From Nitriliruptoraceae bacterium (lineage in GTDB: Bacteria > Actinomycetota > Nitriliruptoria > Nitriliruptorales > Nitriliruptoraceae): a stretch of 64,000 nucleotides of DNA. Position 1 is the first letter of the stretch. Every line of letters begins with the position of its first letter. The translations under genes and the position numbers were made by a program. Shown one piece after another: positions 49,123 to 54,620 of this stretch. A model generated the notes under the pieces. That model was not told where the DNA came from. It searched no databases and saw only the letters and a program-made list of their open reading frames with translations. The DNA lies in assembly GCA_003558435.1 (NCBI GenBank), contig PWLR01000063.1, forward strand, positions 1-64,000, in the 5' to 3' direction.

Positions 49123-50217
49123 TCAGGCGACCGGCGCCGCCAACCACTCGATCGCCTCGCGCAGCGAGGCGACCGGCACCACGGTGGTGCCGGGGAGCGG
49201 GACCTCGTCGAGCAGTGCCGCCTGGGACCGTGGCACCAGCAACACGTCGGCACCGGACCGGTTCGCCGCACGGGCCTTCGCGGGTAGACCACCGATCCGG
49301 ATCACGGTCCCGTCACCGAGGATCCCACCGGTGCCGGCGATGTGGCGTCCCTGCGCCAGGTCGTGGCCGGACCCGTGGGCGTAGGCCATCAGCGCCACCA
49401 TCAACCCGTGGGAACTGCCGAGCGAGAGGTTGCGGGCCGCGTCGCCGGGGATCAGGCGCGCGGCCGCGAACGTGATCCCGGCGCTGAGCGTGTCGGGCGC
49501 GGTGGGACTGACGATCACCTGCTCGTAGGGAAGCCCGGGTCCCGGTGCGGAGAAGCGTTGACCACCACGGAACCTGAACGTCAGCCCCGGCTCGAGCGCA
49601 GCTCCGGCCTCGTTGGATCCGCCGGCCGCCCCGGTGTCCTGTACCCAACCATCGGAGACCTCGTCCCACGTCTGCCGGTCGGTCAAGGGCGCGTCGTTGA
49701 TCGCGTCCAACAACCCCGCCTGGGGGTAGCCCTCCAACAGCGGCTCCCGAACCTCGACCAACACACCGAGCGGCAACTCGCGTCCGGCGTGACGGAGACC
49801 GACCGCGACCGCCGCCGGTTCGCTCAACGTCGGTCGCCGGGTGACAGGACCCGATCGCAGGTCGGTCGCGCCGGAGTCCACACCCAGCAGACGATCGCGA
49901 AGCAGCTCGCCGACCAGGGGCGGCCGCCCGACGGCCAACCAACTCCACCGACCCGGTGGATCGATCACCTCGCCGTCGATCTCCAGGCGACCGTCGAGCC
50001 GCCACACCGTGCCCGGGGGATCCTCGGAGATCAGGTGCAGCCACGGGACCGGCAGCAGGAGCACCACGAGGACCGCGATGACCAGGACACGCTGTCGAGG
50101 GACCGGCGTCGATCCCCCTCGCCGGCGACCAGGCGCAACGAGCGCGTGGCGGGCGCGACGGATGCGCGTCGAACTGGCGTGGATGGTGGGTCCCTCGCTT
50201 CCGGTGACGTCCGCCAC
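49123..50217 (-). CDS. membrane-anchored Lon-like (S16) serine protease domain protein
   Basis: 364 residues with a basic N-terminus, one transmembrane helix (about 44-62) and an extracytoplasmic region. A PDZ-like segment (about 150-230) may be present (LEGYPQAGLLDAINDAPLTD). The C-terminal domain is S16: LGSSHGLMVALMAYAHG carries the predicted catalytic Ser269 and IGGLPAKARAANRSGADVLL the Lys314, a spacing like that of Lon and YlbL proteins. There is no ATPase domain. Actinobacterial relatives (YlbL/SdrC-like) work on secreted proteins. The start is GTG 50217, without a clear ribosome site. Confidence 0.82.
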   Translation of the reverse strand: MADVTGSEGPTIHASSTRIRRARHALVAPGRRRGGSTPVPRQRVLVIAVLVVLLLPVPWLHLISEDPPGTVWRLDGRLEIDGEVIDPPGRWSWLAVGRPPLVGELLRDRLLGVDSGATDLRSGPVTRRPTLSEPAAVAVGLRHAGRELPLGVLVEVREPLLEGYPQAGLLDAINDAPLTDRQTWDEVSDGWVQDTGAAGGSNEAGAALEPGLTFRFRGGQRFSAPGPGLPYEQVIVSPTAPDTLSAGITFAAARLIPGDAARNLSLGSSHGLMVALMAYAHGSGHDLAQGRHIAGTGGILGDGTVIRIGGLPAKARAANRSGADVLLVPRSQAALLDEVPLPGTTVVPVASLREAIEWLAAPVA

Positions 50218-51816: not shown

Positions 51817-52197
51817 ATGACGACCGGCAGCACCGCCGCGCAGACCCCGGCCCGGTCGACGGCCGACCGCATCGCGCGCCAGCTGCTGCTGATCGAGGAC
51901 GCGGCCCCTCGATCGCTCGTCTCTCTACGGGGATCACTGGTCCTGACCGCAGTCCGTTGTGTCCTGACCTACGCACTCATCCCGGTTCTGGCACCGCTCA
52001 TCGGCTGGATGGGTGCGCTTGCGACCCCGGCCTCGCTGGTGCTGTCCCTGGCCGCGATCGCGCTGTCGATCAACAGTCTTCGGCGGGTCTGGATGGCCGA
52101 CTACGCGCACCGCTGGCCCTACACCGCGTTCATCGCGCTCGTCGTGAGCCTGCTGACCGTGGTGGTCGTCAACGACGTCCGAACCCTGCTCGGCTGA
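51817..52197 (+). CDS. small three-helix membrane protein, unknown
   Basis: 126 residues from ATG 51817, with AAAGG seven bases upstream. A polar N-terminus of about 38 residues (STADRIARQLLLIEDAA) precedes three transmembrane helices at about 42-62, 68-87 and 101-119, with a short charged tail. A Cys (LTAVRCVLT) sits in the first helix. I do not recognise a family. It is divergent from tal and convergent with the B12-binding gene. Confidence 0.7.
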   Translation: MTTGSTAAQTPARSTADRIARQLLLIEDAAPRSLVSLRGSLVLTAVRCVLTYALIPVLAPLIGWMGALATPASLVLSLAAIALSINSLRRVWMADYAHRWPYTAFIALVVSLLTVVVVNDVRTLLG

Positions 52198-52281: not shown

Positions 52282-53322
52282 TCACCAGGCCGCTTCTGCA
52301 TCCACGTCGTCGTCGGTGAGGGTCGCAGCCTCGAGCGTGCGATGGCCGGCTTCGAGCAGATCGGTGGTCCGTGGCAGTTCGCGTATCACCCCGAGCAGGG
52401 CTTCGAGCCCCACGGCCGCCACGCCGGTGGGTACGCCGTGACCGCGCAGTACCTCCGGGAGCCAGGTGATGAAGTCCTGGAAGATCCGTTCGTCCCCGAC
52501 CTGCAGACTCACTGCGGCGAAGCGCAGGATGTGATCGAGATCCTCACGCATCCGGGCCCGTTGGTACTCGTCGTACGAGCGCATCGTCGGGAACCTCTGC
52601 AGCAGACGTCGTTCCGCGGCGATGATCAGCTCGGGCAGTTGCAACTCGAGCATCAACTCCTCGTCGTCGGTGCGCAAGCGCTCCGCCCGCCCGACGGGAC
52701 GATCCATCGCCCGCTCGAACAGCGCCGGCGCGTCGGTCGCCGAACCGGCCCAGCCACTGAGTCCGAGCGCCTCCGCACGGTGCGGGTCAGGTCCGAACGC
52801 GTGCCCCCCGCCGAGGATGGGGAGGTTCAGATCGTCGAGGGCATCGGCGACCCGAGCCACGCCGGGTAGCGCCAGCGGCAATGTGCAACTGATCGCCACC
52901 AGGTCGGCTTTGATACCGCCGAGCGTCCTGCGCAGATGCCGAGGCGGGGTCGACCCGCCGAGGAAGGTGACCTGCCAGCCGGAAGCCCGCCACAGCAGGG
53001 CGGCCATCCGCGCCGGTGTGACGTGCCACTCGCCCTCCGCGCTGAGCAGCACGATCGTCCCGCGCCGTCCCCGAGGGACGCGGACGGCGAGCAGACCCAA
53101 CAGATCGTCGATGATCGCGGTGGCCGCGTGCTCCTGCGCGATCGACCACTCGCCGCATTGCCAGCGTTCACCGACCAGGCGCTGCGCGGGCGCCAGGCCC
53201 TCGGTGACGACACGCTCGATCGACTGGCCCCCGTCGACCGCATCGCGCACGAGATGGGTCGCGCTGTAGGGGTCGAGCGCTTCGAGACATCCGTAGAGGT
53301 CCTCGGCGAGGTCTGGGTTCAT
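52282..53322 (-). CDS. cobalamin-binding protein with CarH-like light-sensing core motif, no DNA-binding domain
   Basis: 346 residues from ATG 53322. A four-helix cap (about 1-75) contains Trp54-x9-Glu64-His65 (WQCGEWSIAQEH), the W-x9-EH signature of CarH-type photoreceptors. A Rossmann B12 domain follows with His100 in SAEGEWHVTPARMAALL, 35 residues after the EH pair, the same spacing as His142 to His177 in Thermus CarH. The residue next to the Trp is Gln55, not the His that forms the light-state bis-His link in CarH. The C-terminal 130 residues are helical (DLDHILRFAAVSLQVGDERI). There is no MerR domain. Confidence 0.8.
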   Translation of the reverse strand: MNPDLAEDLYGCLEALDPYSATHLVRDAVDGGQSIERVVTEGLAPAQRLVGERWQCGEWSIAQEHAATAIIDDLLGLLAVRVPRGRRGTIVLLSAEGEWHVTPARMAALLWRASGWQVTFLGGSTPPRHLRRTLGGIKADLVAISCTLPLALPGVARVADALDDLNLPILGGGHAFGPDPHRAEALGLSGWAGSATDAPALFERAMDRPVGRAERLRTDDEELMLELQLPELIIAAERRLLQRFPTMRSYDEYQRARMREDLDHILRFAAVSLQVGDERIFQDFITWLPEVLRGHGVPTGVAAVGLEALLGVIRELPRTTDLLEAGHRTLEAATLTDDDVDAEAAW

Positions 53323-53690
53323 GCAGCTGTCCTGGAGCCGGCGCCAACAGAAGTCCCGCGCGGTCGGGCCACGCCCGACCTCGCGCCTCCGCCCGGACGG
53401 TCGGCCGACATCCTGCGGACCCACCAACTAACCGATGACGGCACCGCGCGGTAGGTCCGAACGGCCGTCCGACCCCCGCGCGCTCCCCCAGGATCGCGTC
53501 GTCCGCCCCGCGGCGAGGGCGACGTACCGCAGCGGTGGAACGCCCCGCGGTGGTGGGTCGCCTCCAGCGAACCGCAACCCCGCCGGAGCCGGGGGCGGCT
53601 GCACACCGGCGACAGCCCCGACCTCCTCGCGCCCACCGAGCAACACCCCCGCATGCGGGGGCGGACGCACCGAGCCGGCGCGTGCTGCGA
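53323..53690. other. 368-bp intergenic region upstream of the B12 gene
   Basis: Between the start of the B12-binding gene and the 3' end of the DUF389 gene, both minus strand. No cobalamin-riboswitch-like layout was recognised. The only structure seen is the perfect palindrome at 53646-53661. Confidence 0.5.
53646..53661. terminator. GC palindrome 30 bp after the DUF389 gene, possible terminator
   Basis: CCCCCGCATGCGGGGG is a perfect 16-bp palindrome just downstream of the DUF389 stop codon (minus strand). There is no T-run, so it would act as a stem-only terminator at best. Confidence 0.3.
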
Positions 53691-54620
53691 TCAGCGAACG
53701 GTATGGCGCTGATCGGCACGGGTCTTGAACAGGAAGACCCCGGCGATCGTGCCCAGGACCAGCACCACCTCGACCGCGAACCGTGCCAGCGCCTGGCCGG
53801 CCAGGCCGACCTCGCCCGCGACGAGCGCCATGGGCACCAGTGCCGCGGTCGGCACCAACGCGAGCGCCACCATGACGCCGGCGGTGAGCACGGTGCGGTT
53901 GATGGCCATCAGCAGCCCACCGGCCACCCCGGCGACCGCACCCACCACGACGCCGGTCCAGGTGATCGTGCTCCAGTAGACGACCAGATCCTCGGAGAGC
54001 AGGTAGGTCGCCTCCCCACCGCCGTCCAGCGCCGAGGTCCCGAGCAGCGCGCTGAGCAGCGCCGCGACCGTGGCGCCGGCCAGCAGCGCTCCGTATCCGC
54101 GGAGCACGTCGATGGCGCCACCCCGCCACGTCCGCGAGCCGTTGACGAGCCCGAGCATGAACCGCGCGAACGGCTGGAACCCCGGGGCGATGACCATCGC
54201 CCCGATCACCACGTGGATGGCACCGGAGACGATGCCGGCGCCGGCGACCACCCCGGCGATGAACATCACGACGACCTTGTCGGCGGTCATCGTGCTCTCC
54301 TGGCCCATGGTCAGCTCCAGCTCCTCCCAGCTGGTCGCTCCCTGCTCGCGCGTCAGGCTGGTGAACGATTCGGAGACCACGCTCAGCGGCACGGAGGTCG
54401 TCATCGTCACGCCGTCCCTGGTCCCCAGGCCGTACTTGTCGGCGATGCGCATTACCTCGCTGAGCCGGTTGTTGGCCACCTCCACGGCAACCAGGTCCCC
54501 GGGGGGCAGCACCGAGACCGCTTCGTGCAGCTGGATCGACAGCGGCTCGATGTGGCGCAGTTCGGTGACCAGGCTGGCGGTCCGGTGGGACGGCACGGTC
54601 AGTTGGATCGAGCGCGGCAC
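53691..54620 (-). CDS. DUF389 domain membrane protein
   Basis: 309 residues from GTG 54620, with AAGGA nine bases upstream; the longer frame to 55265 overlaps the next gene and is not supported. An N-terminal ferredoxin-like domain (about 1-100, RSIQLTVPSHRTASLVTELR) is followed by about six transmembrane helices. DUF389 features include VSGAIHVVIGAMVIAPGFQP and FARFMLGLVNG. The function is unknown; relatives are described as uncharacterised hydrophobic domain proteins and sometimes as transporters. Monocistronic. Confidence 0.85.
   Translation of the reverse strand: MPRSIQLTVPSHRTASLVTELRHIEPLSIQLHEAVSVLPPGDLVAVEVANNRLSEVMRIADKYGLGTRDGVTMTTSVPLSVVSESFTSLTREQGATSWEELELTMGQESTMTADKVVVMFIAGVVAGAGIVSGAIHVVIGAMVIAPGFQPFARFMLGLVNGSRTWRGGAIDVLRGYGALLAGATVAALLSALLGTSALDGGGEATYLLSEDLVVYWSTITWTGVVVGAVAGVAGGLLMAINRTVLTAGVMVALALVPTAALVPMALVAGEVGLAGQALARFAVEVVLVLGTIAGVFLFKTRADQRHTVR

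Follow-up and report, generated by a model that had tools for sequence, protein, structure and literature searches.

A predicted standalone photocobilin from Nitriliruptoraceae and candidate partners for its light signal

A 64,000-nt stretch of DNA from a Nitriliruptoraceae bacterium (contig PWLR01000063.1), here called the window, encodes a protein that is, as judged from its sequence and its predicted structure, a standalone photocobilin, a new member of an already published family. Photocobilins are bacterial light sensors that use vitamin B12 together with a bile-pigment chromophore (PMC10979010). The explanation that as a whole we hold with moderate confidence is that this standalone photocobilin controls c-di-GMP in response to light, acting in trans through a GGDEF protein that carries a domain of about 95 amino acids, named PCOP here (alignment A2). 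For the window protein itself the binding of adenosylcobalamin (AdoCbl) and bilin, the photochemistry, the dimer–monomer switch, and the identity of the partner are features that we infer by analogy.

Domains and chromophore pockets of the window protein

A phmmer search against the PDB gave 8J2W/8J2X as the best matches of the window protein (E 1.3e-52 over residues 7-332), with E values of 2.1e-44 for 8J2Y and 4e-8 for CarH. The three former entries are structures of the photocobilins SasPcob and AbPcob (PMC10979010). The AlphaFold model of the window protein, which was built with 28 relatives, had a pLDDT of 92.8 and a pTM of 0.89, and its five top matches in Foldseek were five photocobilin chains with TM values of 0.85-0.91 (0.87-0.91 for 8J2W). 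Both the phmmer and the Foldseek alignments extended through the C-terminal globin domain, which in photocobilins is a phycobilisome-like globin of five helices. Residues W54, E64, H65, H100, H129, D261, and W287 correspond to Trp61, Glu71, His72, His108, His137, Asp270, and Trp296 of SasPcob, where the numbers used in PMC10979010 are those of the deposited chain plus 6 and this offset was applied in the mapping, and every photocobilin pocket residue that was compared is intact. The match to SasPcob in sequence, fold, and pocket makes the window protein a member of a known family. It also falls within the photoglobins, which were reportedly described by Schneider et al. 2022 (cited in PMC11796333 and PMC10151467) as a family of globin-B12 fusions. 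The gene and its encoded features are the following:

52282..53322, minus strand: standalone photocobilin gene, 346 aa plus stop, ATG start at 53322
53089..53307, minus strand: four-helix bundle (B12-binding_2), residues 6-78, Pfam PF02607, E 3.7e-14
53161-53163 and 53128-53133, minus strand: codons of W54 and of E64-H65, adenosine pocket in the four-helix bundle
52729..53058, minus strand: Rossmann-type B12-binding domain, residues 89-198, Pfam PF02310, E 1.7e-12
53023-53025, minus strand: H100, mapped by alignment to SasPcob His108, the lower cobalt ligand
52936-52938, minus strand: H129, mapped by alignment to SasPcob His137, a biliverdin contact of the other monomer
52288..52665, minus strand: bilin-binding domain of the photoglobin (phycobilisome-like) type at the C terminus, approximately residues 220-345, from Pfam, phmmer, and Foldseek
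52540-52542, minus strand: D261, corresponding to SasPcob Asp270
52462-52464, minus strand: W287, corresponding to SasPcob Trp296

In the AlphaFold model the bundle is made up of helices 3-14, 18-30, 35-55, and 61-79. The earlier note on this DNA had recognized a CarH-like B12 pocket, and W54, Q55, E64, H65, and H100 were all found where it placed them in the 346-aa ORF, with the W-x9-EH spacing and a distance of 35 residues between H65 and H100. The two Pfam matches, the match to the NCBIfam CarH model (E 5e-17), and the invariance of G51, W54, E64, H65, and H100 in a 73-row alignment, which takes in SasPcob and AbPcob, argue that this likeness is not due to chance. The E98-W-H100 sequence corresponds to the E/DxH lower ligand motif of photocobilins. 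The lack of a DNA-binding domain was borne out as well, as Pfam gave no match to such a domain in the protein and the B12 domain begins already at residue 6. On the other hand, the C-terminal helical domain, which had been left unexplained, has instead a phycobilisome/photoglobin bilin-binding fold according to Pfam, phmmer, AlphaFold, and Foldseek; the structure prediction that the note had proposed thus identified this domain as the photocobilin globin, and a new fold was rejected on the phmmer and Foldseek matches. The Phycobilisome Pfam match (residues 230-309, E 1.9e-4) scored 21.9 bits, just under the cut-off of 22.2. There is no Cys after residue 146 and so none in the globin domain, as is also the case in the published photocobilins. 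D261 is kept in 68 and W287 in 72 of the 73 alignment rows, which suggests that the bilin site is under selection. A reversed domain order, with a globin-like match before the B12 domain, was observed in two other sequences (G030:C85:1060-2163 and G008:C201:21262-22020).

The window protein shares with CarH of Thermus thermophilus (PDB 5C8D) the AdoCbl domain, W-x9-EH, and the lower His, but it has neither the MerR domain nor a His at position 55, and it contains an additional bilin-binding globin. Its identity as a CarH repressor was rejected because of the missing MerR domain and His132, and because its score with the NCBIfam CarH model NF052513 was 62.1 bits against a cut-off of 400. SasPcob of Saccharothrix syringae (8J2W in the dark, 8J2X in the light; PMC10979010), which is about 38% identical to the window protein, resembles it in domain order, length, standalone form, the Gln after Trp, the fold, and every compared residue of the adenosine and biliverdin pockets. 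AbDPcob of an Acidimicrobiaceae bacterium (PDB 8J2Y) shares the photocobilin core, with 36% of the residues identical in the structure alignment, but it carries a light-controlled diguanylate cyclase (DGC) in the same chain, and it has His in place of the biliverdin-binding Asp and Tyr at position 55, where the standalone window protein has D261 and Q55. The earlier note was correct that Gln occupies the CarH His132 site, but a reading of this as an unusual loss was rejected, since SasPcob carries the identical residue; most Micromonospora copies have Ala there. The light state of SasPcob is aquo/hydroxo-cobalamin and not bis-His (PMC10979010). A His is found at this alignment position in six relatives from the class (L062, L063, L067, L068, L074, and L077), and the light state of these photocobilins, in contrast to that of SasPcob, might be bis-His.

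Whereas most members of its clade overlap a partner gene, the photocobilin of the window does not. Its flanks contain:

53323..53690, minus strand: 368-bp gap between the photocobilin gene and the upstream DUF389 gene
53691-54620, minus strand: DUF389 gene, upstream of the photocobilin
51817..52197, plus strand: small convergent ORF downstream of the photocobilin, 126 aa, with hydrophobic stretches

An alternative start, TTG at 53427, lies upstream of the ATG and is less likely because conservation begins near residue 6. The 126-aa ORF had no Pfam match and is probably unrelated to the photocobilin, and Rfam gave no match to RNA elements near the photocobilin gene in the window. Positions 49123-50217 of the window (minus strand) encode a protein with a C-terminal match to a Lon-type proteolytic domain (Lon_C, E 3.8e-5).

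Neighbors of related photocobilins and the PCOP domain

The search of 66 genomes gave 27 full-length photocobilin loci in the class of the window bacterium, and a PCOP-bearing gene adjoins 15 of them. PCOP is fused to intact or degenerate GGDEF, to MerR, or to histidine kinase; it follows the MerR domain in one case (L104 9129-9689) and forms the C-terminal end of a PAS-histidine kinase in another (L105 9920-11518). That it can precede GGDEF and also follow MerR or a kinase marks it as a separate unit. Several photocobilin/PCOP gene pairs have a four-base overlap, with gene calls at these loci made by a simple script and starts that are approximate. PCOP had no accepted Pfam match, as DUF6415 was found under the cut-off (E 0.0062) in only 2 of 13 members and was rejected, and it had no relative by sequence in the PDB. 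Foldseek of a PCOP-GGDEF model returned GGDEF matches only, because GGDEF dominates this model. PCOP was not found in the SpoIIE partners of Micromonospora, where the best score was 3 bits.

The occurrence of PCOP followed that of photocobilins, with PCOP in 16 of the 66 genomes, a full-length photocobilin in 20, and both in 14 (Fisher p = 4.8e-8, uncorrected for relatedness). In genomes at least 80% complete the counts of PCOP versus photocobilin were 7/1/5/36 (p = 6.6e-5, also uncorrected for relatedness). In the two genomes that have PCOP without a photocobilin (G005 and G031), the PCOP gene and the linked ABM part, related to HmoB/MhuD, reach the contig end, where a photocobilin gene beside PCOP would be cut off. 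The PCOP linkage of photocobilin neighbors looks new, although the photoglobin paper of Schneider et al. 2022 may already have described it.

Since no partner adjoins the window gene, its link to c-di-GMP comes through its relatives. In the tree the window protein grouped with a paralog from its own genome and with L069 (98/88), and then with L062-L065 (99/97), all four of which adjoin PCOP-GGDEF genes. Within this latter clade PCOP-GGDEF neighbors are present for 5 of the 6 members other than the window protein. The paralog (C252), which is 41% identical to the window protein, overlaps with its start the PCOP-GGDEF gene L099 8939-9838. The same genome contains two PCOP-GGDEF genes without an adjoining photocobilin, which are C141 (L148 6743-7624, motif GGDEF, beginning at a contig end) and C222 (L149 6246-7301, motif GSDEF). 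The search for partners, which the earlier note had also proposed, thus found none beside the window gene itself, but it did find PCOP genes beside the photocobilins of relatives and in the window's own genome. A lone photocobilin and lone PCOP-GGDEF proteins in one genome fit a trans-acting pair, although they do not prove it. A PduO-type adenosyltransferase gene is also present in this genome.

Proposed mechanism and chromophore supply

Photocobilins form an AdoCbl-bound dimer in the dark, and light induces Co-C cleavage, the exit of the adenosyl group, and dissociation of the dimer, while the bilin makes the protein responsive to red light as well (PMC10979010). The C-terminal domain of SasPcob binds biliverdin as the second chromophore, and in vitro SasPcob acted on a separate DGC, whose activity it altered (trans-activation). 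The function of standalone photocobilins was described as less clear (PMC10979010). In the window protein, AdoCbl would in the dark be held between the helical bundle, with W54 and E64-H65, and the Rossmann domain, with H100 ligating the cobalt, while a noncovalent bilin would sit in the C-terminal globin, held by D261 and W287 and touching the corrin. By analogy to SasPcob, green light, or red light via the bilin, would cleave the Co-C bond and release the adenosyl group. As position 55 is not a His, the cobalt would then take up water or hydroxide, and the dimer, arranged head to tail, would fall apart. The surface freed in this way could change the activity of a separate protein, most likely the PCOP-domain DGC encoded by the unpaired C141 or C222, so that light would set c-di-GMP, and the PCOP domain in neighboring enzymes may be the route for the light signal. 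The earlier suggestion that the protein senses light or cobalamin and passes the signal on through protein contacts agrees with standalone photocobilins and with the trans effect of SasPcob on a DGC, but it missed the family and the second chromophore.

Against the full mechanism stand the Phycobilisome score just under the cut-off and the findings that neither a canonical heme oxygenase (PF01126) nor a phytochrome PHY domain was detected in the window's own genome, which is 92.66% complete; the same search did find PF01126 in control genomes. Hence, native bilin loading is a proposal. This leaves a minor but appreciable chance that in its native host the protein is a B12-only sensor, in which the globin residues are kept although bilin seldom occupies the site, as a heme oxygenase that makes biliverdin is lacking. 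Such a sensor would be consistent with the presence of PF01126 in only one (G033) of the 18 genomes with a photocobilin among the first 61 relatives and in only 5 of 16 such genomes outside the class, and with the observation that AbPcob works despite poor biliverdin binding (PMC10979010). However, the conservation of D261 and W287 argues against it, and so do HmoB/MhuD-related ABM genes, which adjoin 9 of the 27 class photocobilins and are sometimes fused to PCOP-GGDEF:

L110 9260-9613, L105 8493-8828, L107 7504-7845, L101 15092-15412, L122 5621-6715, and L152 19-1179: HmoB/MhuD-like ABM proteins, beside photocobilins or fused to PCOP-GGDEF

The Asn/Trp/His triad matters in the IsdG family. 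Most of the linked ABM proteins keep the heme-ligand His, and in the alignment the L110 protein keeps only this His, with the Asn and Trp of HmoB replaced by Ser and Tyr, which makes it doubtful that the adjoining proteins are standard IsdG-type heme oxygenases; they are possible makers or binders of bilin with altered catalytic residues. The window's own genome encodes an unlinked MhuD-like ABM protein with the full triad. Together with the HmoB-like neighbors, this protein makes another source of bilin possible.

Alternative outputs and implications

A slightly smaller chance is left for a photocobilin with an output other than c-di-GMP, such as SpoIIE/STAS partner switching as in Micromonospora and Saccharothrix, ANTAR, or some other protein. 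In Micromonosporaceae, Pseudonocardiaceae, and Streptomyces the photocobilin adjoins, and mostly overlaps, a SpoIIE phosphatase gene, and in the two loci checked STAS genes follow downstream:

L001 4223-5980, L011, L035, L044, L047, L049, and L053: SpoIIE gene followed by photocobilin, in Micromonospora and other actinomycetes
L001 7131-7478 and L044 6984-7334: STAS genes downstream of the SpoIIE/photocobilin loci

STAS/SpoIIE proteins were proposed as partners of SasPcob (PMC10979010), and the photocobilins that adjoin SpoIIE are likely a light input to partner switching. Downstream of the Dactylosporangium photocobilin, L035 7028-8071 encodes a MerR HTH protein that also matches DNA polymerase III beta-clamp domains. 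The SpoIIE/STAS neighbors in the SasPcob clade indicate that the output differs between lineages. The nearest sister of the window protein outside its own genome, L069, points to such variation also within its small clade, as it is a photocobilin fused to GAF and ANTAR, an RNA-binding antiterminator domain (L069/L109 997-2778, G004:C136), and possibly a light-controlled RNA regulator. However, SasPcob groups in the tree with the SpoIIE-linked copies, while the window protein belongs to the group linked to PCOP-GGDEF. A degenerate or nonphotosensory B12 carrier, serving as a cobalamin level sensor or a methyl carrier, is very improbable, because its weak similarity to the corrinoid proteins of methyltransferases is outweighed by the intact pocket residues, and those proteins have neither the W-x9-EH pocket nor the globin.

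Returning to the reading in which PCOP proteins receive the light signal in trans, we tentatively propose, at somewhat less than even chances, that PCOP is a portable docking or coupling domain for trans outputs, including DGCs, MerR proteins, and kinases, through which the window photocobilin would act on unlinked PCOP-GGDEF proteins, and that HmoB-like ABM proteins supply or handle bilin where a canonical heme oxygenase is absent. The frequent absence of this enzyme and the HmoB-like neighbors raise the question of which bilin photocobilins really use. The window protein extends the photocobilin family of photoreceptors to another lineage, and the presence of PCOP in neighboring signaling proteins provides concrete partner candidates for standalone photocobilins, and a pair of photocobilin and PCOP could serve as a split optogenetic tool of two parts for red and green light.
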